A stretch of 64,000 bases of DNA from Phycisphaerae bacterium (lineage in GTDB: Bacteria > Planctomycetota > Phycisphaerae > JAJVII01). Below, one piece after another: positions 53,051 to 64,000 of this stretch. Position numbers and translations under genes: made by a program. Location: positions 1 to 64,000 of the forward strand of contig JAJVII010000005.1 in assembly GCA_022072085.1 (NCBI GenBank), written 5' to 3'. The notes beneath the pieces are model-generated. The model made no database searches, was not told where the DNA came from, and saw only the letters and a list, made by a program, of their open reading frames with translations. Numbering within the stretch: position 1 is the stretch's first letter; every line of letters starts with the position of its first letter.

Positions 53051-54100
53051 CTACTGCTCGGCGATCACTTCCCACCTCGCACCACGCCCACGGCCGACCA
53101 GTCGCACCTGGCCGGCCTTCTTCATCTCGCCCAGCACCTTCTTCACCTGCTGCACGCTGACGCCCGGAAGCTGGCCCCGCAGATCGCCCAGCGTGAACGG
53201 CCCGACCTGGGCACGGACGGCATTACGCACCAGTTCCCCCTTGGCCGGCCGACGCGAAGCCGATTCCACCTGAGCGGCAAAGTCCTGATACGCCCGACGG
53301 ACGAAGCCCAGGAAGTAGTTCCACCACGGCACGACGACGTTCTTGCCCTCGTGCCAGCCATTGGAGCACTCGCCCAGCACCCGATAGTAGTCGGCCTTGG
53401 TTTCCTCCACGATTCGTTCCATGCTCACGTATCGGCCAACCTCGAACCCGTGCCCAAGCAGAAGGAACGTCGTCAACAGCCGCGATACCCGGCCATTGCC
53501 GTCGCGGAACGGGTGGACGCACAGGAAGTCAAAGACGAACGTGGCCGCCGTCAGCAGCGGTGGGATGGCCGAATCCTCGGACGCCTCCCGGTAATTGCCG
53601 CACAGCTCTGCAATGGCCTTGGGTGTGTCCTTGGCTGCGGTAGGCTTGAATCGGACGGTTCGCTGGCCGTCGGGCAGGAACTCGATGATCTCGTTGTCCC
53701 GTCGCTTCCACTGCCCCGCGTCCCCGGCCAACCCGCCTTGGGCCGTCGCGTGCAGGTGTAGGATCACCTTCGGCTCGACGGCCACGCGGAACTTGCGGGT
53801 GAATATCCAGTCCAACGCCTTGCGGTAGCCCGCCAGTTCCTCTTCGGAGCGATCGCGGGGCCTAGCCTTGCCCAATACCACCGGCCGCAGGCGCCCCGGC
53901 TCGACCGTCACGCCTTCGATCCGGTTGGACGACTCGGCGCTCTGGATGATGGCCTGCTCGCGCAAGGCCGCCAGGACCTCCGGCCGCTGCCGCATCCAGA
54001 GCTCCTGCTTGCCCCGGGCCTCCATGCAATCGCCAAGCAGCCAACTCGTGCTCACCGGGACAGAGAGCCGCCTCAACCGATCCGCCTGCAAGGAAAGCAT
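53051..54100 (-). CDS. Fic family protein with C-terminal winged helix
   Basis: 349 residues. The ATG at 54100 follows AAAGGAGG. Class II layout: an N-terminal inhibitory helix motif SSNRIEG (SxxxEG, residues 57-63), the Fic core with HPFRDGNGR (196-204; catalytic His196), and a C-terminal winged-helix domain ('FTLGDLRGQLPGVSVQQVKKVLGEMKKAGQVRLVGRGRGARWE', ~300-345). It transfers AMP (or another NMP) from a nucleotide to a protein hydroxyl; targets unknown. The winged helix may bind its own promoter at the phased TAGGCTA repeats. Its position beside the attachment site and HipBA fits an island accessory or toxin-like role. Confidence 0.9.
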   Translation of the reverse strand: MLSLQADRLRRLSVPVSTSWLLGDCMEARGKQELWMRQRPEVLAALREQAIIQSAESSNRIEGVTVEPGRLRPVVLGKARPRDRSEEELAGYRKALDWIFTRKFRVAVEPKVILHLHATAQGGLAGDAGQWKRRDNEIIEFLPDGQRTVRFKPTAAKDTPKAIAELCGNYREASEDSAIPPLLTAATFVFDFLCVHPFRDGNGRVSRLLTTFLLLGHGFEVGRYVSMERIVEETKADYYRVLGECSNGWHEGKNVVVPWWNYFLGFVRRAYQDFAAQVESASRRPAKGELVRNAVRAQVGPFTLGDLRGQLPGVSVQQVKKVLGEMKKAGQVRLVGRGRGARWEVIAEQ

Positions 54101-54118
54101 GACTCACCTCCTTTATAG

Positions 54119-54156
54119 TAGCCTAAGAATAGCCTATTATCGGCAGCAGTAGCCAA
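54119..54156 (-). promoter_or_regulatory. Phased TAGGCTA repeats upstream of fic
   Basis: On the plus strand TAGCCTA occurs at 54119 and 54130 (11 bp apart) and TAGCCAA at 54150 (20 bp further). They lie 19-56 bp upstream of the fic start codon, in an AT-rich stretch that also holds the likely -10 region. An autoregulatory site for the winged-helix Fic protein is a reasonable inference. Confidence 0.45.
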
Positions 54157-54343
54157 TTATTCCCGGGAAAACCGGAGTGTCCCTTCGCGTGGATTCTCCG
54201 CCCACTTAGGAACCATCCGCCACAGGATCCCACCAATCCCTGCACGATGAAAACACGGGCTAATATGTTATCTGTATAGTGCCGATGTACGGCTACAAGG
54301 ACAACGTATTCCCTTTAGATATACGTCGTGGTAGAATCCTGGT

Positions 54344-54655
54344 ATGAATGCGACGACGCTATCGTTGGTGGGGCCGGCGGAGATGGGGAAGTCGCTGGCC
54401 GATCGAGCCAAGGCACTCCGCCTACTCAAAGGCTGGACACGGAACACGCTGGCTGCACGAGCCGGTGTGTCGGCCGCCTCGCTGAAGCGGTTCGAGACGA
54501 CCGGCAAGGCATCGCTGGATCTGGTGCTCAAGGTCGCCCACGCCCTGGCCCGGCTAGAGGAATTCAGCAGGCTGCTCCAGCCGCCGCCGGCGCAAAGCAT
54601 CGAGGAACTCGAACAGCGAGCCACCAAGCCCCCCCGCAAGCGAGGCCGGATATGA
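54344..54655 (+). CDS. hipB: HipB-type antitoxin (XRE family HTH)
   Basis: 103 residues. A Cro/C1-type helix-turn-helix spans ~18-75: 'LADRAKALRLLKGWTRNTLAARAGVSAASLKRFETTGKASLDLVLKVAHAL'. The C-terminal tail (IEELEQRATKPPRKRGRI) is basic. In HipBA pairs this protein neutralises the kinase and represses the operon. Its stop overlaps the hipA start (ATGA at 54652-54655), the usual arrangement. No ribosome-binding site stronger than 'GGTA' is visible before the ATG. Confidence 0.87.
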   Translation: MNATTLSLVGPAEMGKSLADRAKALRLLKGWTRNTLAARAGVSAASLKRFETTGKASLDLVLKVAHALARLEEFSRLLQPPPAQSIEELEQRATKPPRKRGRI

Positions 54656-55881
54656 AGAAGCTGGAGGTCCACTTCAGCCGCAGTCCTGAAGACGCGACGA
54701 CCGTCGGCACGCTGGCCGAAGACCGCGGGCGGGTCTACTTCCAGTACGCCGCCGAGTTCCTGGCGACCGGCCTGAACTTGTCGCCCTTTCGTCTACCCTT
54801 CGAGCCGGGCCTGTTCGAGCATACCGACCGCGACTTCGGTCCCCTGCCCGGCCTGTTCGATGACTCCCTGCCCGACGGCTGGGGCCTGCTGCTGATGGAC
54901 CGCCACTTCCGCTCCCGAGGCATGAACCCGGCCGAGGTCAGCCCGCTGGACCGGCTCACGTGGCTTGGCACGCGGACAATGGGCGCGTTAACCTATCACC
55001 CACCGGCCGACTGCGAGAACGTCGACGCCGATATGTTCGACCTACACGAGCTGGCCCGCAATTCGCAGGAGATCCTGGCCGGCACGGCTGCGGAAGTCCT
55101 GCCGCAGCTGGTGCGTGCCGGCGGGTCGCCTGGCGGCGCCCGGCCAAAGGTGCTCGTCGGCTTCAATCCGGCCACGGGCGGCATCATCTCCGGCGAGGAC
55201 GACCTGCCCGACGGCTTCGAGCACTGGATCGTCAAGTTCCCGGCCAAGGCCGACACGCCCGACGCCGGCGCCGTCGAGTACGCCTACTCGCTCATGGCCC
55301 GCGCCGCCGGCATCGACATGCCGCCCACCCGGTTGTTTCAGACCACCCAGGGCGACCGGTTCTTCGGCATTCAGCGGTTCGACCGTGCCGGCCGCCGGCG
55401 GTTCCACGTCCACACGTTCGGCAATCTGATCCAGTCCAATTTCCGCATCCCGTCAGCCGACTACGCCGACCTGCTCAAGGCCACGTCGCTGCTGACGCGG
55501 AACCACCAGGACGTCCTGCGGGTCTTCCGCCTGATGGTTTTCAACGTCCTGGCCCACAACCGCGACGACCACGTGAAGAACTTCGCCTTCATCCTGGACG
55601 ACGCAACCGGCGAATGGCGCCTGTCACCCGCGTACGACCTGTCCTTCACGCCCGGCCCCGGCGGCGAGCACACGATGACGCTGGCCGGCGAGGGAAAGAA
55701 CCCAGGCCGGCCGCACATGCTGCGCCTGGCCCAACAGGCCGATGTGTCCGACCGCGAAGCCGCGACGCTCATCGACCAAGCGCAGGCCGCTGTCGCCGGC
55801 TGGCCGCACTTCGCCGCTGAAGCGAACGTCGTGAAGAGGATCGCCAAGGGGATCGCCGAGTCGATTGCACCGCCAAAGTAG
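54652..55881 (+). CDS. hipA: HipA-type serine/threonine kinase toxin
   Basis: 409 residues, near the E. coli HipA length. The ATG at 54652 overlaps the hipB stop and starts the N1 subdomain ('VGTLAEDRGRVYFQYAAEFL'). 'GGARPK' (161-166) is the Gly-rich loop, 'EHWIVKFP' holds the ATP-contacting Lys, 'FNVLAHNRDDHVKNFAFI' the catalytic loop with D306, and 'SPAYDLSF' the metal-binding Asp (329). It phosphorylates glutamyl-tRNA synthetase or a similar target in known cases, halting growth. All kinase motifs are intact, so the toxin is likely active. As an island gene it may serve addiction or defence. Confidence 0.92.
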   Translation: MKKLEVHFSRSPEDATTVGTLAEDRGRVYFQYAAEFLATGLNLSPFRLPFEPGLFEHTDRDFGPLPGLFDDSLPDGWGLLLMDRHFRSRGMNPAEVSPLDRLTWLGTRTMGALTYHPPADCENVDADMFDLHELARNSQEILAGTAAEVLPQLVRAGGSPGGARPKVLVGFNPATGGIISGEDDLPDGFEHWIVKFPAKADTPDAGAVEYAYSLMARAAGIDMPPTRLFQTTQGDRFFGIQRFDRAGRRRFHVHTFGNLIQSNFRIPSADYADLLKATSLLTRNHQDVLRVFRLMVFNVLAHNRDDHVKNFAFILDDATGEWRLSPAYDLSFTPGPGGEHTMTLAGEGKNPGRPHMLRLAQQADVSDREAATLIDQAQAAVAGWPHFAAEANVVKRIAKGIAESIAPPK

Positions 55882-55958: not shown

Positions 55959-58481
55959 TCAGCCCAGTCCGGCACCCGGTTCTGCCGTGGCTTCCCGCTG
56001 GAGATCGATAGCGAGCATGGATTCGAGCGAGTCGATGCAACTGGGCCACAGGAAGCCGAATTCTCGCAGGCCCTTTTCAACACTGATGGCAACATCCTCA
56101 TCTCGCTGCGCCTCGACGAACTCCAGCAAGTTGGCCAATCGTTCGCAGAGGCCCGCGAATTGCTCGACGCCGATCACTTGCAGGTCGTCTGCCGGGTTGG
56201 CCTCTTGCGCAACTCGTAGCCGCGGCCCAACGATGACCTTTCTGAATGCGTTGCCCGGAAACCGCTTGGCCGCCCACCGAACATGGTCGTCAAATTGAGC
56301 AATCTCGTCCTTCTTGCGATACTGCGATGTCGGTTTCTTGTCGGTCTTGGCCTCCAGCATCACGCCCTCGTGCGTGCCTGGGGACTGCCACAGCACGTCC
56401 GGGCCTGTGTGCTCTTCATTGTCAGGCCGCGATGCGTTCAGCCCAAGCAGGTCGCCAAGCTCCTTTAATGCCTGCTCCGCTGGCTTCGTGTCAGGCCCGT
56501 TAGTCAGTCGCTTTCTCACCTCATCGCATTGCGCCCGTAACTTGGCCCCAGCTTTCGAGATCGCGACTGCGATTCTCTTGGCTTGTGGGCCAGGCACAAT
56601 GTCGCGGCCACTGACGATCAAGCCCGCCCGGACCTGTGGTCGCCCAAGCTCCGACCTCAAGTTCGCAGCCTGCGTGTAGGCCAGAACCGCGTTTGCGCCC
56701 TTGCCACAGTAGTCCAAGCACAGCCCCTCCCAGTGTCGGTACCAGGCGGCCAGACGGCGATCGTGCTCCAATGCCGCCCCAGCGAGCTTTCCGTAAGCAT
56801 CTGCTGCCGCTGGGAAGTTGCCGTCCCAGAGCATCCGATAAGCGTCCTTCTCACCCAAGATCAATTCCGTGAACCACGCGGCCCAACCAGGATTCGTTTC
56901 GACATCGCAATCATCGAGAAACTCACGATAGCGTTTGTCCCAGTCGGGTGTCCCATCAAGCACCTTCGCAAGAAGCGTATCGTAGTCTGCCTTTCCCTGA
57001 TCGACCATCCGCCGGAGAGCCAAACCAAGTTGCACCTGCTTTTGCAGAAGCACTGGCATGCATTTCTGGTTGTTGGGGTCTTTGAACCAGCGCTGCAAGT
57101 CGGTCCCGCAGGCAACGACAGCCCCGTGATCAGTGTTGCTGCGGAATATGCGACCAATGGCCTGCACGACACGGCTAGCCAGATGCGCCAGCCGCAGTTC
57201 GGCAATTCGCAGAGTCCCGTCCAGGAACCTGTCCAGCAGGCACGCCCCCCGCGGCAACCCGTCCAGGATAAGTATTCGACATGCCTTCCCCGGAAGATCG
57301 ATACCATCATACCTGGCCGCAAGAATCAATTTGTCCGCTTTCGTGGATGCTGCAAATTGTTCAATGCCGGCGTGCCCGCTTCGACCATCATATTTTCGGC
57401 CAATGTCGGTCCAGAGATTCGCTGCCTGGTCCGAGGGCGTGATGACACACGCCTTCTCCGTCTGGATCAAGCGGCATACCTCTTTGTGTTGCTCGTCGTC
57501 GCCTTCCGCCGCCGGAAAGATGAAGAGCCGCTGGGCCTCTCCGGACTTCCCGCCAGGGGCGACGCACGTTCCGGGCGTCACGCCAAAAGTCGACGCAAAT
57601 TCGACTTGCGAGGGCAGTGTCGCCGTAAGATACACCCTGCGGACACCGGGGTTGAAATAGGGCGTCGTATGCAAGGGCAGCATCGGCGGTGTAATCTCTA
57701 TTCCCATTCCTGAGATGATAACGACGCATCGATTCAGGCTGTCCTTCACGTGTGCCCACGGATAAGCAAGATGCTCATCTTCGGTAATGCCCGAGTCGGC
57801 CAATAGTTTACGCATCACGTCGGCCTGTCGCTTGACTTCGTACATCGGCACGAACAAGAGCGAGAAGCCGTGTCCGCTCAGAGCCTCCTCGAACTGCTGG
57901 ATCTGGCTATTTGCCGCGAAGACGCCCCGATAGAGGTTGGCCAAGGGCAAAAAACGTTCGTCTGCCTGACTGAAGGACAGGGTAAAGCAATTCCTGATAA
58001 CGTTGCTGGCGACGTGCGCGTCGTCGAAGACAAGGGCCTTCAGGTCGAGCTTCCGAAACTTACTGAACCCGTGAAAGATAGCGTGGTAGTTTGTGATGCA
58101 CGGTCCTGAGCAAGTATCGAATGCATCGCCTGTCCATTTCGTCTGCATGTACGTGGTGACATCGATGCCGCATTCGGCTGCTCGTTTCGCGGTCTGCTCG
58201 ACCAGTTGGTTAGTGGGGCAGGCGTAAACGACTCTGCCTTTGGTTTCGATCACCAGTGATTGAGCGATCACGAGACCAACAAGCGTCTTCCCACCGCCTG
58301 TGTTCATCTGAACCATCACGTCCGCTTGAGCACGGTTCGCGTGCCAGGTTCTCAAGGCATCGGCCTGAGGGTCCCAGATGTTGTCGATTGAACCCCGAAG
58401 AGTCAGACTCTCGAATAGGGCTATCGGCTCGTATATCCGCGTCCGCTTGGTTGCCTTGATTGGAAGGTCTGAAAGGTCCAT
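55959..58481 (-). CDS. DEAD/DEAH-like helicase with C-terminal PD-(D/E)XK-like motif
   Basis: 840 residues. ATG at 58481 after GGAGG. Superfamily 2 helicase: Walker A MNTGGGKTL (TGGGKT 61-66), motif Ia 'VVYACPTNQLVEQ', motif II as DDAH (153-156), motif III-like 'VYLTATLPS' and motif VI 'QAIGRIFRS'. The middle 430-650 is mostly helical and unassigned. Near the C-terminus 'TGPDVLW' (~692-698) and 'EGVMLEAKTDKK' (E710-x-K712) match a PD-(D/E)XK nuclease core, with a following 'QYRKKDEIAQFDDH' helix. Acts with the DUF499 ATPase and DUF1156 methylase in the same operon (58 bp gap upstream). Restriction of unmodified phage DNA is the inferred role. Confidence 0.85.
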   Translation of the reverse strand: MDLSDLPIKATKRTRIYEPIALFESLTLRGSIDNIWDPQADALRTWHANRAQADVMVQMNTGGGKTLVGLVIAQSLVIETKGRVVYACPTNQLVEQTAKRAAECGIDVTTYMQTKWTGDAFDTCSGPCITNYHAIFHGFSKFRKLDLKALVFDDAHVASNVIRNCFTLSFSQADERFLPLANLYRGVFAANSQIQQFEEALSGHGFSLLFVPMYEVKRQADVMRKLLADSGITEDEHLAYPWAHVKDSLNRCVVIISGMGIEITPPMLPLHTTPYFNPGVRRVYLTATLPSQVEFASTFGVTPGTCVAPGGKSGEAQRLFIFPAAEGDDEQHKEVCRLIQTEKACVITPSDQAANLWTDIGRKYDGRSGHAGIEQFAASTKADKLILAARYDGIDLPGKACRILILDGLPRGACLLDRFLDGTLRIAELRLAHLASRVVQAIGRIFRSNTDHGAVVACGTDLQRWFKDPNNQKCMPVLLQKQVQLGLALRRMVDQGKADYDTLLAKVLDGTPDWDKRYREFLDDCDVETNPGWAAWFTELILGEKDAYRMLWDGNFPAAADAYGKLAGAALEHDRRLAAWYRHWEGLCLDYCGKGANAVLAYTQAANLRSELGRPQVRAGLIVSGRDIVPGPQAKRIAVAISKAGAKLRAQCDEVRKRLTNGPDTKPAEQALKELGDLLGLNASRPDNEEHTGPDVLWQSPGTHEGVMLEAKTDKKPTSQYRKKDEIAQFDDHVRWAAKRFPGNAFRKVIVGPRLRVAQEANPADDLQVIGVEQFAGLCERLANLLEFVEAQRDEDVAISVEKGLREFGFLWPSCIDSLESMLAIDLQREATAEPGAGLG

Positions 58482-58539
58482 TATCCATCCTCCAAATCGC
58501 CGTTGCCGGTCTTTTCATTCGAGGTATGTACGCCGTGCG

Positions 58540-61500
58540 TTAGCGAACCTGGAAGCCGTCCTTCAGGCCGTCGAGGAGTTTGTTCAACTCCGCGGCAGCA
58601 GCGGGGGCGGGCTTCTGTGTGCCATCGCCGGCTTCCAGACGGACATGGAACCGCAGCTGAATCTTGGCCTTCGCCTTGAACTCCAACAACTGCGGCACGA
58701 GATCGGCCAGGTCCTGAACCTCGGACGGCTCGAATTCGGCGCTGGCGACGAGCATCGTGGGTTCGACCGCTGCCGTGCCACCACCGCCCGTCTCGCCGCC
58801 CGTGGCGGCAACAGGAACCTTGATCTTCACCGTGTTGGCGGCGGGTAGATCGCAAGGCCACGGAGCCGAGCCATCTGCGAGGGCGATGAACCTGGCCTGA
58901 AGCGACCCGCCGATCACGTCACGCACTGTCTTCCACGGCAGTGTGCTGCCTGCCTGCTGAGACAGCGCCGCGGCAATGGACAGGGCTGTAGTGCCTCCAT
59001 TCTTCCAGGCTGGGGCCAGGGTTTCGGGCAGGATGGCGGCCGCGGAGATTGGTGACGGCGGCACGCGCAGCTTCGACGTGGCGGCCAACACGCCCGTCGG
59101 AATAGGTTCGCCCAGCAGGCTGGCAGGGCCGGAGATCAGCCAGGCCTTGCCGGCCGCGACCGCGTCCGCGATAGCGGCCTCGACGACCTGTGCCGACGCC
59201 TTGGGCACGGGCACAGCCTCCGTAAAACCGCCCTTGTCGACTTGGACCACCGTCTTACCGCTGAAGTAGTCAGTCACGGCCTGGGCTGTGATCTCATCAC
59301 CCGGCCACAAGTCGGGCAACGCCTTGGGCGCCAGCAATTCGCCAGGAATCTCGCCCAGTTCCGCCGCCTCCGGCAGGACCAGCTCAATCGCCGGGTCATT
59401 CAGAGCAGCATCGTCCGGGCGCGTGCGCCACCAGGTCCGGAAGGTCCGGTCAGGCCGCGTCAGTTTCAGCACGAACGTGCCCTGAACGCAACCCTCAATC
59501 AACGTCTCCACGATTGCCTGAGACTTGAGCATCTTCGGCAGATGCGGAAGCTGCGCGAACGCCCCGGCCAGGTCCTTCACGCGTCGGCTGGTTTCGCCAC
59601 CTTTCCACAGGTTGTATGGGCCGTCGGGCAGCAGGGCCTCGGCGGTGATAGCCGTATCCTGCACGCGCGAGCGTGAATCCCTCTTGATCGTCTCGAAGTG
59701 GGCATCGTCCGTGACCGTGATCTTGAATGCCTGCGCATCGTCCTTGTCCGACACGGTCACGACAATGCAGTACGCCTGGCGAATAGCCTCCGGCACGCGC
59801 CCCCTGGCCTTGTCGATATTGATCTTGAGAGTCTGCAGCCGGGCGACATCGACCGACCCCTTCTGCTTCTTCTCCTCGTCGTTCCTGGGCGTCAGTTCGT
59901 TCATGACCCGCTCCCAGGCCAGGTAATCGCGCACGCGGGCCTCGGCGGCGCTCAGGCCGTCCCTGGACGCTGTCAGCAGCAGGACCGCGTTGCGGAACAC
60001 ACGCGGCTTCTCCGTCCCCGTCGTCTCATCCAGGAACCGCCTGGCCTCCGCGCTGGGCTTGCCGGAGTCCGACGCGGCGCTGGGCGGCAAAACGGCATAG
60101 TGGAACAGGCCGTCGTCCTCGATGTCCCTGGGCTTGGTCGGCAGCGTATGGACCCGCACGCCCGACGCCGACGCGCCGCTGGTCAGCGTCTTGGCCTTGC
60201 CGATCTCCTCGATCAGCCGGGCCTTCACCACGTCGTCCGAGATCTGTGCGGCCGCCGCCGACTGCATCTGGTTCAGGTTCGGGCGATTACCCAGCCGCCA
60301 TTCGGCGGGCAACTGGCCGTCCTTGTCGGGCATGTTGGTGTCGTCGAGCCAGTAACTGTTCCGCGCCCAGCGGCCCAGGCCCTTCTCCAGCTCGATCTTG
60401 TCCGGCCGGCACGGGCCGATCAGAAGCATCAGGTCGCGCGTCTTGGCGCTGCGGCCGGTCGGCTGGGAGTGCAGGAAGGTCGCCATCACCGCCTGCTCGA
60501 TCTCGCGTAGCTTCAGCCCGACCGACTCGGATTGCACCTGGCGGGCGCTGCCCAGCTCGTTCTCGACGATGCCCGTCCACCGCGTCGCCTGGCCGTCGCT
60601 GACGATGGTGTCGGCGATGGACACCAGCTCGCGGGCCGATTCGGACAAGCCTTCCTTCTTGGGGGCGTTGAGGAACACAGCCGGCCCAACCAGCGGGCTG
60701 TCATCCCACTTCTCGGCCTCGCGCAGCGCCAGGGCGAAGGTCCGCAGCACGCCGCGCGTCTTCTGGAACCGCTCGATGCCCGCCGACCACTTGGTGTAGA
60801 ACACCTCCGTCAGTTCGGGGTGGAACGGGAAACTCTTGAGGTAACGCTCCTCAGCAGCCGCGCCATTCTTGGCCGTCTGATCGTCCAGGGCGGCGATGCC
60901 CTTGATCGCCGCGATCACATGCTGCGGCCACGTTCCGCGAAGCTCCACGGACTTGGGATCGAACAGCCGACGCCGCAGCACCTCGGCCACGTCGTCCTTC
61001 TCCACCGGCTGGACCGCCTCCTCGCGCTGGCGCTGGAAGATGTCGTACAGGTCGGAGACGATCTTCTTGCCCAGCGGGTCGGCCTGGTCCTTCGGCTCGC
61101 TCGACAGCAGCGACGCCACGATGCAGCACTTCTCGACCTTCGCCGCCGCCTGGGTCAGGTACTGGAAGAACCCGATCAGCACGTCGAGGAAACCTGGCTC
61201 GGTGTGGCAGCGCACCTTGGCGTACAGCAGCACCTCGTCCAGCAGAATCAGCGTGCCCATGCCTTGCTTCAGTGGCAGCGACAGCAGGTCCGTCAGCGTG
61301 TTCTCGGCGGGCGGCGTGGCGCGTTCCTCCGCCTTGCCGTCGGCGTGCAGGAGCTTGAGCCCCTCGTCCCCGGCGATCTGGTAGGCCAGCAGGCTCCACG
61401 GCTGCTTGAGCCGACGCACCGCGCCGTCCGGGCTGCGCACGTCGCAGCCGGTCTCGACGTCCAGCTTGTCGAAGCACAGCGCCGCCACGCGGGCCTGCGG

Positions 61501-61878
61501 GGGCGTCTGGCCGATGGTCTCGGTGAACTCCCGCACGGCGGGCAGGTCCGGCAGGTTCGCCGGGTCGTTCACCAGGTGGCGCATGGTGATCAGCGTGTGC
61601 GTCTTGCCGCCGCCGTAGGTCAGCTCGAGCTGCCGCACCGCCTTGTCGTTCTTGCCCGCCAGGCGCAGCACCACGTCCCGCACCAGGCCGCGCAGGTTGT
61701 GCGTGGGGAAGGTCAGCGCGAAGAACTCGTCGGGCCGCTCGTAGATCGGCCGCTTGCCGTTCTGCATCATGACCTCGTAGAGGTCCGCCGCGAACATGTG
61801 CAGCGGCAGATCGCCCGAGCGCAGGTCGTCCCGCAGCTTCACGACCTCGTGCCACGTCTTCCAGGGTTGCTTTGCCAT
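58540..61878 (-). CDS. DUF499 family AAA+ ATPase
   Basis: 1112 residues. The ATG at 61878 follows AAAGGTGA; an in-frame GTG 9 nt upstream is less likely. 'WHEVVKLRDDLRSGDLPLHMFAADLYEVM' and 'EFFALTFPTHNLRGLVRDVVLRL' are the DUF499 N-terminal signature. Walker A 'LELTYGGGKTHTL' (GGGKT 89-93) and Walker B 'GTLILLDEVLLYA' (LLDE 212-215) are intact. The C-terminus has a Gly-rich linker and a ~60-residue domain. DUF499 (COG1483) ATPases are nearly always next to DUF1156 DNA methylases (COG1743) in defence islands (established observation). Its role may be DNA scanning or loading of the helicase. Confidence 0.9.
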   Translation of the reverse strand: MAKQPWKTWHEVVKLRDDLRSGDLPLHMFAADLYEVMMQNGKRPIYERPDEFFALTFPTHNLRGLVRDVVLRLAGKNDKAVRQLELTYGGGKTHTLITMRHLVNDPANLPDLPAVREFTETIGQTPPQARVAALCFDKLDVETGCDVRSPDGAVRRLKQPWSLLAYQIAGDEGLKLLHADGKAEERATPPAENTLTDLLSLPLKQGMGTLILLDEVLLYAKVRCHTEPGFLDVLIGFFQYLTQAAAKVEKCCIVASLLSSEPKDQADPLGKKIVSDLYDIFQRQREEAVQPVEKDDVAEVLRRRLFDPKSVELRGTWPQHVIAAIKGIAALDDQTAKNGAAAEERYLKSFPFHPELTEVFYTKWSAGIERFQKTRGVLRTFALALREAEKWDDSPLVGPAVFLNAPKKEGLSESARELVSIADTIVSDGQATRWTGIVENELGSARQVQSESVGLKLREIEQAVMATFLHSQPTGRSAKTRDLMLLIGPCRPDKIELEKGLGRWARNSYWLDDTNMPDKDGQLPAEWRLGNRPNLNQMQSAAAAQISDDVVKARLIEEIGKAKTLTSGASASGVRVHTLPTKPRDIEDDGLFHYAVLPPSAASDSGKPSAEARRFLDETTGTEKPRVFRNAVLLLTASRDGLSAAEARVRDYLAWERVMNELTPRNDEEKKQKGSVDVARLQTLKINIDKARGRVPEAIRQAYCIVVTVSDKDDAQAFKITVTDDAHFETIKRDSRSRVQDTAITAEALLPDGPYNLWKGGETSRRVKDLAGAFAQLPHLPKMLKSQAIVETLIEGCVQGTFVLKLTRPDRTFRTWWRTRPDDAALNDPAIELVLPEAAELGEIPGELLAPKALPDLWPGDEITAQAVTDYFSGKTVVQVDKGGFTEAVPVPKASAQVVEAAIADAVAAGKAWLISGPASLLGEPIPTGVLAATSKLRVPPSPISAAAILPETLAPAWKNGGTTALSIAAALSQQAGSTLPWKTVRDVIGGSLQARFIALADGSAPWPCDLPAANTVKIKVPVAATGGETGGGGTAAVEPTMLVASAEFEPSEVQDLADLVPQLLEFKAKAKIQLRFHVRLEAGDGTQKPAPAAAAELNKLLDGLKDGFQVR

Positions 61879-61944
61879 TATCTTCACCTTTGCCTTTCGG
61901 GTCGCCGCATGATGCTCGCCCGCGTGTTCGTTTTCCGGGTTCGT

Positions 61945-64000
61945 TTACTCGTTCTCATTGAACAGCACCGGGCCGCGATCCTTGACCGCGCCCTTCGCGC
62001 CGATGTGGTTGCTGATGCTCTCCAGCAGCGACCGCTCGCTGTTGGTGGACAGTTCGATCAGCGACTGCACCACGCGCTTGAATAACTCGTTCTGCCGCAG
62101 GGCGTGCTGGTCGAGGTACTCGTCCACCTTCAGGACGTCGCCTTCCTTCCACAGGTGCATCACGCGGTGGATGCGGTCGATCAGCGGCACGGCCTTGCCT
62201 TCGGGGGCTTCCAAGCCCATGCTCTTGCCGCGCCGGTGGTTCCAGGACTTGAGCTTCACCTTGCTACCACCACCGGAGCCGCCGTCGTCGTCCGCGTCGT
62301 TTCCGGGGGCGTCGCTGTCGGAATCGTCCGACTCCGCCGCCTCATCGGCCTCTGCGGCCAGGGCCGCGTCGCTGCCCACATGGATCAGCACGTCCCATGT
62401 CTTGTCCAACTCACCGTCCGACAGGCTGCACGCCGTTGCGTAGAGGATGCACGCGCCGACGGGCGCTTCGTCCATGCCGAAGTCGTGGCGGTGCAGCAGG
62501 TAATAGGCCGTCACCTCGTCCAGCCGGTCGGCGGCGGCCAGGTCCGAGCCCTGCTCGCCGGTCAGCACTTGGCCGACGACGTAATCCACCACCATCCGGC
62601 GGACGTGGTTGAGGAACTCGCCCACGCCCATCGTGGCGTTCGGCTCGTTGGCCTTGCGCACCACGGGATGCTTGCTGTACGCCTCCATCGCCGGACCAGT
62701 CGCTGCCCATACGAAGTCCGGCCCCCGAATCCCGGCGTCCCAAAACTCGCGTAGCTTGATGGCGATGTTCGACTTCATTTCTTCCAGAACACTGTTGTCC
62801 CAGCCGGGACGCGCTGTAGCGGAACGTCTCTTGCACACAAGCCAAAGCGAAGATGCAAGGGCCGCAGAAGCGCGGGCCCGACTTCGGGTTGCGTTTTCCG
62901 TCTGAATCGGCCAACTTGCATCAACAACGAAGCCCGCTCGGATAAGAGCCGCCGCCAGTGTTTCCCACGCCAACGCGTCCTTGTGGGCAAACACAACGAC
63001 CATTCTGCCGTTTTCGACCAGCATCTCGCCGCACCGCCGAAAGACCCGGAACATTCCGTCTTCATAGGTGTGACGTGACGCAATTGCATCGCCATCATGG
63101 CGGGTCTCATCGTCGATCAGTTCGCCGTCGTTCGCCTCGCGGTCCCATTTGGGCGACAACGCTGAGTCTCGTAGCCGCGCATAGCCAGGAGAAACGTCCA
63201 CCATTGTTCGACGTAGCCAAATGTAAAACAGGTCCATTAGGTCGGAGTATGGGATGGCGTCATAGTAGGGCGGATCAGTGACGACGAGATCAATTCGCCG
63301 CCCGACATCGCCAGCTAGTGACGACGCCTGCACAACTAGGGGGACAGGAGCGCCGTTCGCCGCAACGAGGGCGTGATCGAGCGCCGATGAGCACATCCGG
63401 ACGGCACTGGACCAACTTCCACCCCCATCGAACATCGGGTTGGCCTCAGCGTAGTCCCACATTATTGGTAGCGCATACCGCACGTAGGTGTGCTTCACGT
63501 TCTCCCCGGGCAAATACCACGTGCATAGGGTGGTAGACTGATCCACAAGGCGATTGAGCGAAGCCGAAAGATAAGCACGAACGGGCTCACCCCAATCGGC
63601 ACCGGCCGCGGCGCCAGCGGTCTCGACCGGGACCTCCCGAATTGACCTGGCCAGTGTGCCGAGAGCGACCAGTTGGCGACTCGTGAACAGATCACACCAC
63701 CGCATCAGACCATAATTCTGAACCGAGAACGCCCGTGCTGCTCCGCGGCCCCCTCCTGCGGGCGTGGGCTCCACAGGAACGCCAAACGGCACATCTGCGT
63801 ATATCCGGTCAATCTCGCGGCTGACCTCCGACGCGCATCGCTGTTCTTCCGGGGTCGGCAGCCGGTACTCTTTGCCTTTCTGGCCGTCCACAGCAACCGC
63901 TGTCATAACTGCGCCCAATTGTCCCGCCTTACCCTCCACGCGGATATCTTCCATCCTCATAATCGTCGGGCAACAGGGACACTTCGCGCCCGCCCGACTC
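61945..64000 (-). CDS. DUF1156 adenine-specific DNA methylase, 5' partial
   Basis: At least 685 residues, running off the right edge. The frame is open beyond an apparent ATG at 63960: upstream codons read 'AKCPCCPTIMRMEDIRVEGK', a zinc-ribbon half and the typical start of the second DUF1156 block. 'LVVTDPPYYDAIPYSDLMDLFYIWLRR' holds the catalytic DPPY motif of amino-methyltransferases. C-terminal part: an Asp/Ser/Gly-rich linker and a helical region. It should methylate adenine (or cytosine N4) in DNA to protect self. With DUF499 57-67 bp downstream it forms the classic pair. The missing N-terminus should carry the SAM-binding FxGxG motif. Confidence 0.9.
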   Translation of the reverse strand, partial: SRAGAKCPCCPTIMRMEDIRVEGKAGQLGAVMTAVAVDGQKGKEYRLPTPEEQRCASEVSREIDRIYADVPFGVPVEPTPAGGGRGAARAFSVQNYGLMRWCDLFTSRQLVALGTLARSIREVPVETAGAAAGADWGEPVRAYLSASLNRLVDQSTTLCTWYLPGENVKHTYVRYALPIMWDYAEANPMFDGGGSWSSAVRMCSSALDHALVAANGAPVPLVVQASSLAGDVGRRIDLVVTDPPYYDAIPYSDLMDLFYIWLRRTMVDVSPGYARLRDSALSPKWDREANDGELIDDETRHDGDAIASRHTYEDGMFRVFRRCGEMLVENGRMVVVFAHKDALAWETLAAALIRAGFVVDASWPIQTENATRSRARASAALASSLWLVCKRRSATARPGWDNSVLEEMKSNIAIKLREFWDAGIRGPDFVWAATGPAMEAYSKHPVVRKANEPNATMGVGEFLNHVRRMVVDYVVGQVLTGEQGSDLAAADRLDEVTAYYLLHRHDFGMDEAPVGACILYATACSLSDGELDKTWDVLIHVGSDAALAAEADEAAESDDSDSDAPGNDADDDGGSGGGSKVKLKSWNHRRGKSMGLEAPEGKAVPLIDRIHRVMHLWKEGDVLKVDEYLDQHALRQNELFKRVVQSLIELSTNSERSLLESISNHIGAKGAVKDRGPVLFNENE

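Follow-up and report, generated by a model that had tools for sequence, protein, structure and literature searches.

A divergent Hma operon of a planctomycete ends with an Hna-family helicase-nuclease, suggesting a layering of restriction and abortive infection

An operon in which a DUF499 ATPase gene accompanies a gene for an SNF2 helicase with a fused DUF3883 restriction endonuclease has been described (PMC3710099). Such an operon was named Hma (PMC8565338) and renamed Type-1 BREX-related (PMC12839542). HEPN and other auxiliary effectors are known within such operons, and fusions of a PD-(D/E)XK nuclease to an SF2 helicase are listed among the auxiliary effectors of BREX/BR loci, with no mention of Hna (PMC12839542). 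Hna itself is a DinG/XPD-like SF2 helicase without FeS cluster that carries a C-terminal PD-(D/E)XK nuclease, about 845 aa in total. In S. meliloti it degrades ssDNA as a 3'-5' exonuclease and requires free 3' ends; it forms an ATP-autoinhibited dimer, is activated by phage SSB and works by abortive infection as a single gene (PMC13381803). In the open-access literature that we searched, no paper that places Hna within operons of the Hma, RM or BREX type was found, priority being uncertain.

The window studied here, a stretch of 64,000 nucleotides, is part of an 83,453 bp contig (C34) of a 5.49 Mb planctomycete genome, and the numbering is identical in both. An operon that crosses the end of the window is encoded entirely on the minus strand, in the order hmaA - abi_C - hmaB - hmaC - hna. 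The relevant features are:

54652-55881, plus strand: HipA gene, overlapping the HipB gene by 4 bp and convergent with hna (HipA ends at 55881, hna at 55959)
55959-58481, minus strand: hna-like gene (PADLOC PDC-S28), 840 aa, closing the operon at a distance of 58 bp from hmaC
58540-61878, minus strand: hmaC, DUF499 AAA+ ATPase, about 1112 aa from ATG 61878 (alternative start GTG 61887)
61945-65241, minus strand: hmaB, DUF1156 N6-adenine methylase, 1098 aa, running past the window end at 64000
65238-66071, minus strand: abi_C, HEPN-like (Pfam Abi_C), 277 aa, outside the window
66068-69649, minus strand: hmaA, XRE HTH, SNF2 helicase and NOV_C nuclease-like domain, 1193 aa, outside the window

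Judged by profile matches, the core of the operon is of the Hma (Type-1 BREX-related) kind, with HmaA, HmaB and HmaC all present. The initial annotation had proposed a DUF499/DUF1156 antiphage locus of this kind, and the PADLOC models bear it out. HmaC matches Pfam DUF499 and the PADLOC HmaC model (231 bits) and contains the Walker A motif GGGKT. The full HmaB protein scores 364 bits with the PADLOC HmaB model and carries DUF1156 at residues 11-61, the SAM motif DPFAGGG at 135 and DPPY at 656. HmaA (483 bits, PADLOC HmaA) is composed of Pfam HTH_3, SNF2 and NOV_C, the last with an ExK motif; NOV_C is what we take to be the former DUF3883. The described Hma operons and the present one thus share a DUF499 AAA+ ATPase, a DUF1156 N6-methylase and an SNF2 helicase that ends in a PD-(D/E)XK-type domain. 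No match to DUF3780 (Type-2) or to PglZ/iSTAND (Type-3) was obtained for any of the five operon genes.

The operon is nevertheless a divergent Hma. Firstly, the HmaB and HmaC scores (364 and 231 bits) are low beside the approximately 1100-1600 bits of two other operons (L049 and L063). Secondly, an XRE-type HTH fills residues 18-61 of HmaA, where an N-terminal TUDOR is expected. Thirdly, the HEPN-like protein is encoded by a separate gene, abi_C, and not fused to DUF499, and hna is appended at the end. The N-terminal XRE HTH is common to a planctomycete subclade of HmaA together with L101, L102 and L103. Its fusion to the helicase suggests self-regulation, of HmaA itself and of the Hma operons in this subclade.

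Within the window, the three long, close, same-strand ORFs that the initial annotation described (55959-58481, 58540-61887 and 61945 to past 64000) are indeed present. Its gap of 58 bp between hmaC and hna is exact. The 66 bp between hmaB and hmaC hold with ATG 61878 as the hmaC start, a choice backed by the homologues in L101-L103; with GTG 61887 the gap is 57 bp. Beyond 64 kb, where the annotation expected the methylase N-terminus and further genes, the former is complete, DUF1156 included, and abi_C and hmaA follow. The abi_C gene is joined to both neighbors, hmaA and hmaB, by 4-bp ATGA-type overlaps. The shared strand, these overlaps, the 58-bp gap and a minus-strand scan of contig 54.0-62.5 kb that showed nothing resembling a terminator make the single transcript proposed earlier probable. 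The GC3 of hna (0.68) and abi_C (0.65) is below that of hmaA and hmaC (both 0.87), and these two genes are therefore possible late arrivals; such later insertion may have taken place, and the GC3 difference fits it without proving it.

The helicase in the window is a full-length Hna homologue, as judged by its sequence, predicted fold and active site. Its 840 aa match Pfam DEAD, ResIII and Helicase_C_2, and its predicted architecture comprises a DinG/XPD-type SF2 helicase, a helical region and a C-terminal PD-(D/E)XK nuclease. Among PADLOC models it matches PDC-S28 with 749 bits. In a phmmer search against PDB sequences the sole strong match was Hna (10uj/9yhn/9ykj; E 7.7e-63). The AlphaFold model, built with 25 sequences (pLDDT 85.9), found the Hna monomer as its best PDB match in Foldseek (E 6.9e-45, 838 columns), with DinG/XPD helicases ranked below the Hna entries. 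The nuclease residues P694/D695/E710/K712 align to Hna P712/D713/E727/K729, and Q39 and the helicase motifs show little or no variation in the family alignment. The earlier idea that modification and cleavage are both encoded here holds, as far as can be read from the genes.

In addition to its full-length match, fold, helicase motifs and nuclease residues, which it shares with the described Hna, the window protein also shows differences. Hna was described as a single-gene system, whereas here it stands at the end of an Hma operon; for this reason we file it as an Hna-family protein in an Hma operon and not as a stand-alone Hna. The S. meliloti protein belongs to a different large clade of the tree, and its dimer-interface residues T30/D31/P34 correspond to G30/S31/N34 in the window protein. 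These positions are variable in most of the family and therefore are not a defining feature of Hna. Because they are not conserved, auto-inhibition of the S. meliloti type may not apply.

The second accessory gene, abi_C, contains RNKQGTGH (Rx6H) inside its Pfam Abi_C match, which fits the HEPN Rx4-6H motif. A single-sequence structure model (pLDDT 39) was too poor to confirm the fold. Homologues are scarce: two, both weak, among 294 genomes.

On the 3' side of the operon, real genes for Fic (minus strand) and HipBA (plus strand) lie within the window at 53051-55881. The initial annotation saw in them an abortive back-up; we found no tie to the operon. Both lie outside the predicted transcript, HipBA being convergent, and neither Fic nor HipBA recurs among the Hma operons searched, those at the Hna loci and, by eye, the others, so we rejected both as parts of the system. 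Hna and Abi_C, which belong to the operon, are better candidates for an abortive back-up. On the other side, just upstream of hmaA, contig positions of about 69.8-83.4 kb (L003, L004) hold prophage-like late genes on the same strand as the operon. A tail tape measure protein is encoded at 73179-75461 (PHROGs, E 3e-58), and capsid-region-like ORFs were seen by eye near the contig end. As the defence operon lies directly downstream of these genes, it may be prophage cargo. No tRNA was found in contig 45-83 kb.

In a scan of genome contigs, 126 Hna relatives were confirmed and 80 of them kept. Besides the present locus, hna occurs in canonical Hma operons of a member of Chloroflexota (L049) and of a proteobacterium (L063/L120). 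In L049 the order is hmaA (1686 bits), a 264-aa ORF, hna, hmaB and hmaC; hna is thus placed after hmaA and before hmaB, and the gaps on its two sides measure 39 and 6 bp, the shorter being the one to hmaB. In L063/L120, hmaA is followed by ATPase-like and TOPRIM-like ORFs (by eye), hmaB, HEPN, two ATPase-like ORFs, hmaC and, at a distance of 321 bp from hmaC, hna; two opposite-strand ORFs come after hmaA. Ten further loci hold hna inside type I RM operons (L014, L022, L048, L052, L070, L071, L072, L075, L077 and L090), and in two it follows the BREX genes PglZ-BrxL (L018 and, in Chloroflexota, L124, with BrxL assigned by profile and PglZ by eye).

In an Hna tree of 87 rows, made by a quick method, linkage to Hma appears as three independent changes and linkage to RM as six, and the starred branches force all of them. 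Read from this tree, the pairing of Hma with Hna represents three separate recruitments. The P-D-E-K residues are kept in all three Hma-linked proteins and in the BREX-linked copies on the tree. In six RM-linked proteins, near relatives of one another, the catalytic Lys has given way to Tyr. The clade with P-D-E-Y consists of L070, L071, L072, L075, L077 and L090 (also L068, L081, L084 and L097). As Tyr replaces the catalytic Lys in this RM-embedded clade, its nuclease may be altered or dead.

These associations involve a minority of Hna genes. When genomic loci flanked on either side by more than 4 kb are considered, 11 of 51 are linked (RM-I 8, Hma 2, BREX 1) and the other 40 are unlinked to RM-I, Hma or BREX. 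When RM, Hma or BREX genes occur in the roughly 10 kb around hna, they mostly adjoin it directly and on the same strand. This pattern suggests more than loose clustering in defence islands, a comparison judged without a matched control set and including six RM cases that are near relatives. Among 294 planctomycete genomes HmaC occurs in 46 and Hna in 7, the two being adjacent at the present locus only. The corresponding numbers for 261 Chloroflexota genomes are 64 and 5, with adjacency only in the genome of L049, in which it had been discovered. A general coupling of Hma and Hna in Planctomycetota or Chloroflexota was not found, adjacency being confined to the discovery genomes. As an accessory Hna is rare, since the majority of Hna genes are solitary and the majority of Hma operons have none. 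As to mobile elements, plasmids carry many Hna relatives and many DUF499 genes, a phage collection gave one record, and IMG/VR three distant Hna relatives, beside which Hma genes were not detected.

The planctomycete Hma operons L101-L113 carry differing extra genes between their core genes, among them a HEPN/nucleotidyltransferase-like pair, PIN-like genes and ATPase ORFs (all labels by eye). By its gene content the Hma operon looks as if it were a chassis for swappable effectors. Such varied extras are in line with the auxiliary effectors reported by others (PMC12839542).

We suggest that the operon is a layered defence, in which a restriction-like Hma core is joined by two accessory effectors, Abi_C/HEPN and Hna. 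We give this reading a probability of roughly 0.6. It is supported by gene identities, gene order, overlaps, conserved catalytic residues and the recurrence of hna in Hma, RM and BREX operons. A possible course of events, in which the single transcript, the activities, the trigger and the cooperation of the layers are inferred from the genes, is as follows. HmaB would methylate host DNA. HmaC, the DUF499 ATPase, and HmaA, the SNF2 helicase with PD-(D/E)XK nuclease, would survey and restrict unmodified phage DNA. Meanwhile, the Hna-like protein would be a nuclease gated by its helicase and inactive as long as there is no infection, a state that an ATP-dependent dimer maintains in S. meliloti Hna. 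A signal of phage replication, which is phage SSB in S. meliloti, would unleash it on DNA 3' ends, and the infection would be aborted when restriction fails. The HEPN-like Abi_C may add an RNA-cleaving suicide layer. PrrC is a back-up effector inside a restriction operon. The proposed arrangement is like that of PrrC and of the PARIS-like and HEPN modules in BREX/BR (PMC12839542) in that a suicide effector rides in a restriction operon. No homology of these to Hna is claimed, however, and none of their triggers is known to activate Hna.

The strongest alternative is that Hma and a single-gene Hna are independent known systems, each working alone, that happen to adjoin in a defence island next to a prophage. 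Hna mostly is stand-alone and acts alone in S. meliloti, in two phyla it is rarely found adjacent to Hma, GC3 differs and prophage genes are next door. Three independent pairings on the tree, the wedged position of hna in L049 and the predominance of direct same-strand neighbors (no matched control set) are harder to reconcile with mere abutment, which we regard as possible and distinctly less likely than layering. Another alternative makes Hna the processing nuclease of the Hma reaction, degrading ssDNA ends from the HmaA/HmaC complex with no separate abortive trigger. The requirement of S. meliloti Hna for free 3' ends would suit this role, and hna adjoins restriction subunits (hsdR) in several loci; yet HmaA has a PD-(D/E)XK-type domain of its own, most Hma operons do without Hna, and the catalytic Lys is gone in six RM-embedded proteins, so that we consider such a role improbable. 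Finally, the view of the initial annotation that the window helicase is the Hma helicase completing a trio, to which the order and spacing of the three ORFs had led, is hardly tenable, since the protein has no match to HmaA with PADLOC models, the true HmaA is a separate gene upstream in the same operon, and sequence and fold both assign it to Hna.

Layered restriction and abortive infection is thus the reading that the evidence best supports, and the layers may cooperate. A more general and rather doubtful idea is that Hna is a plug-in effector repeatedly recruited to methylation-based operons, where it would be gated by, or guard, the host restriction complex. The single-gene Hna would then be one deployment of a shared module.

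Taken together, the parts of this operon are known and their combination, which suggests stacked defence layers, is unusual; the joining of Hna to Hma has come about independently in other bacteria as well. For annotators it means that adjoining PDC-S28 and Hma matches can be one locus. Hna has been treated as solitary; its recurrence beside Hma, type I RM and BREX offers a concrete case in which to test whether abortive infection backs up restriction, the two possibly being on one transcript.
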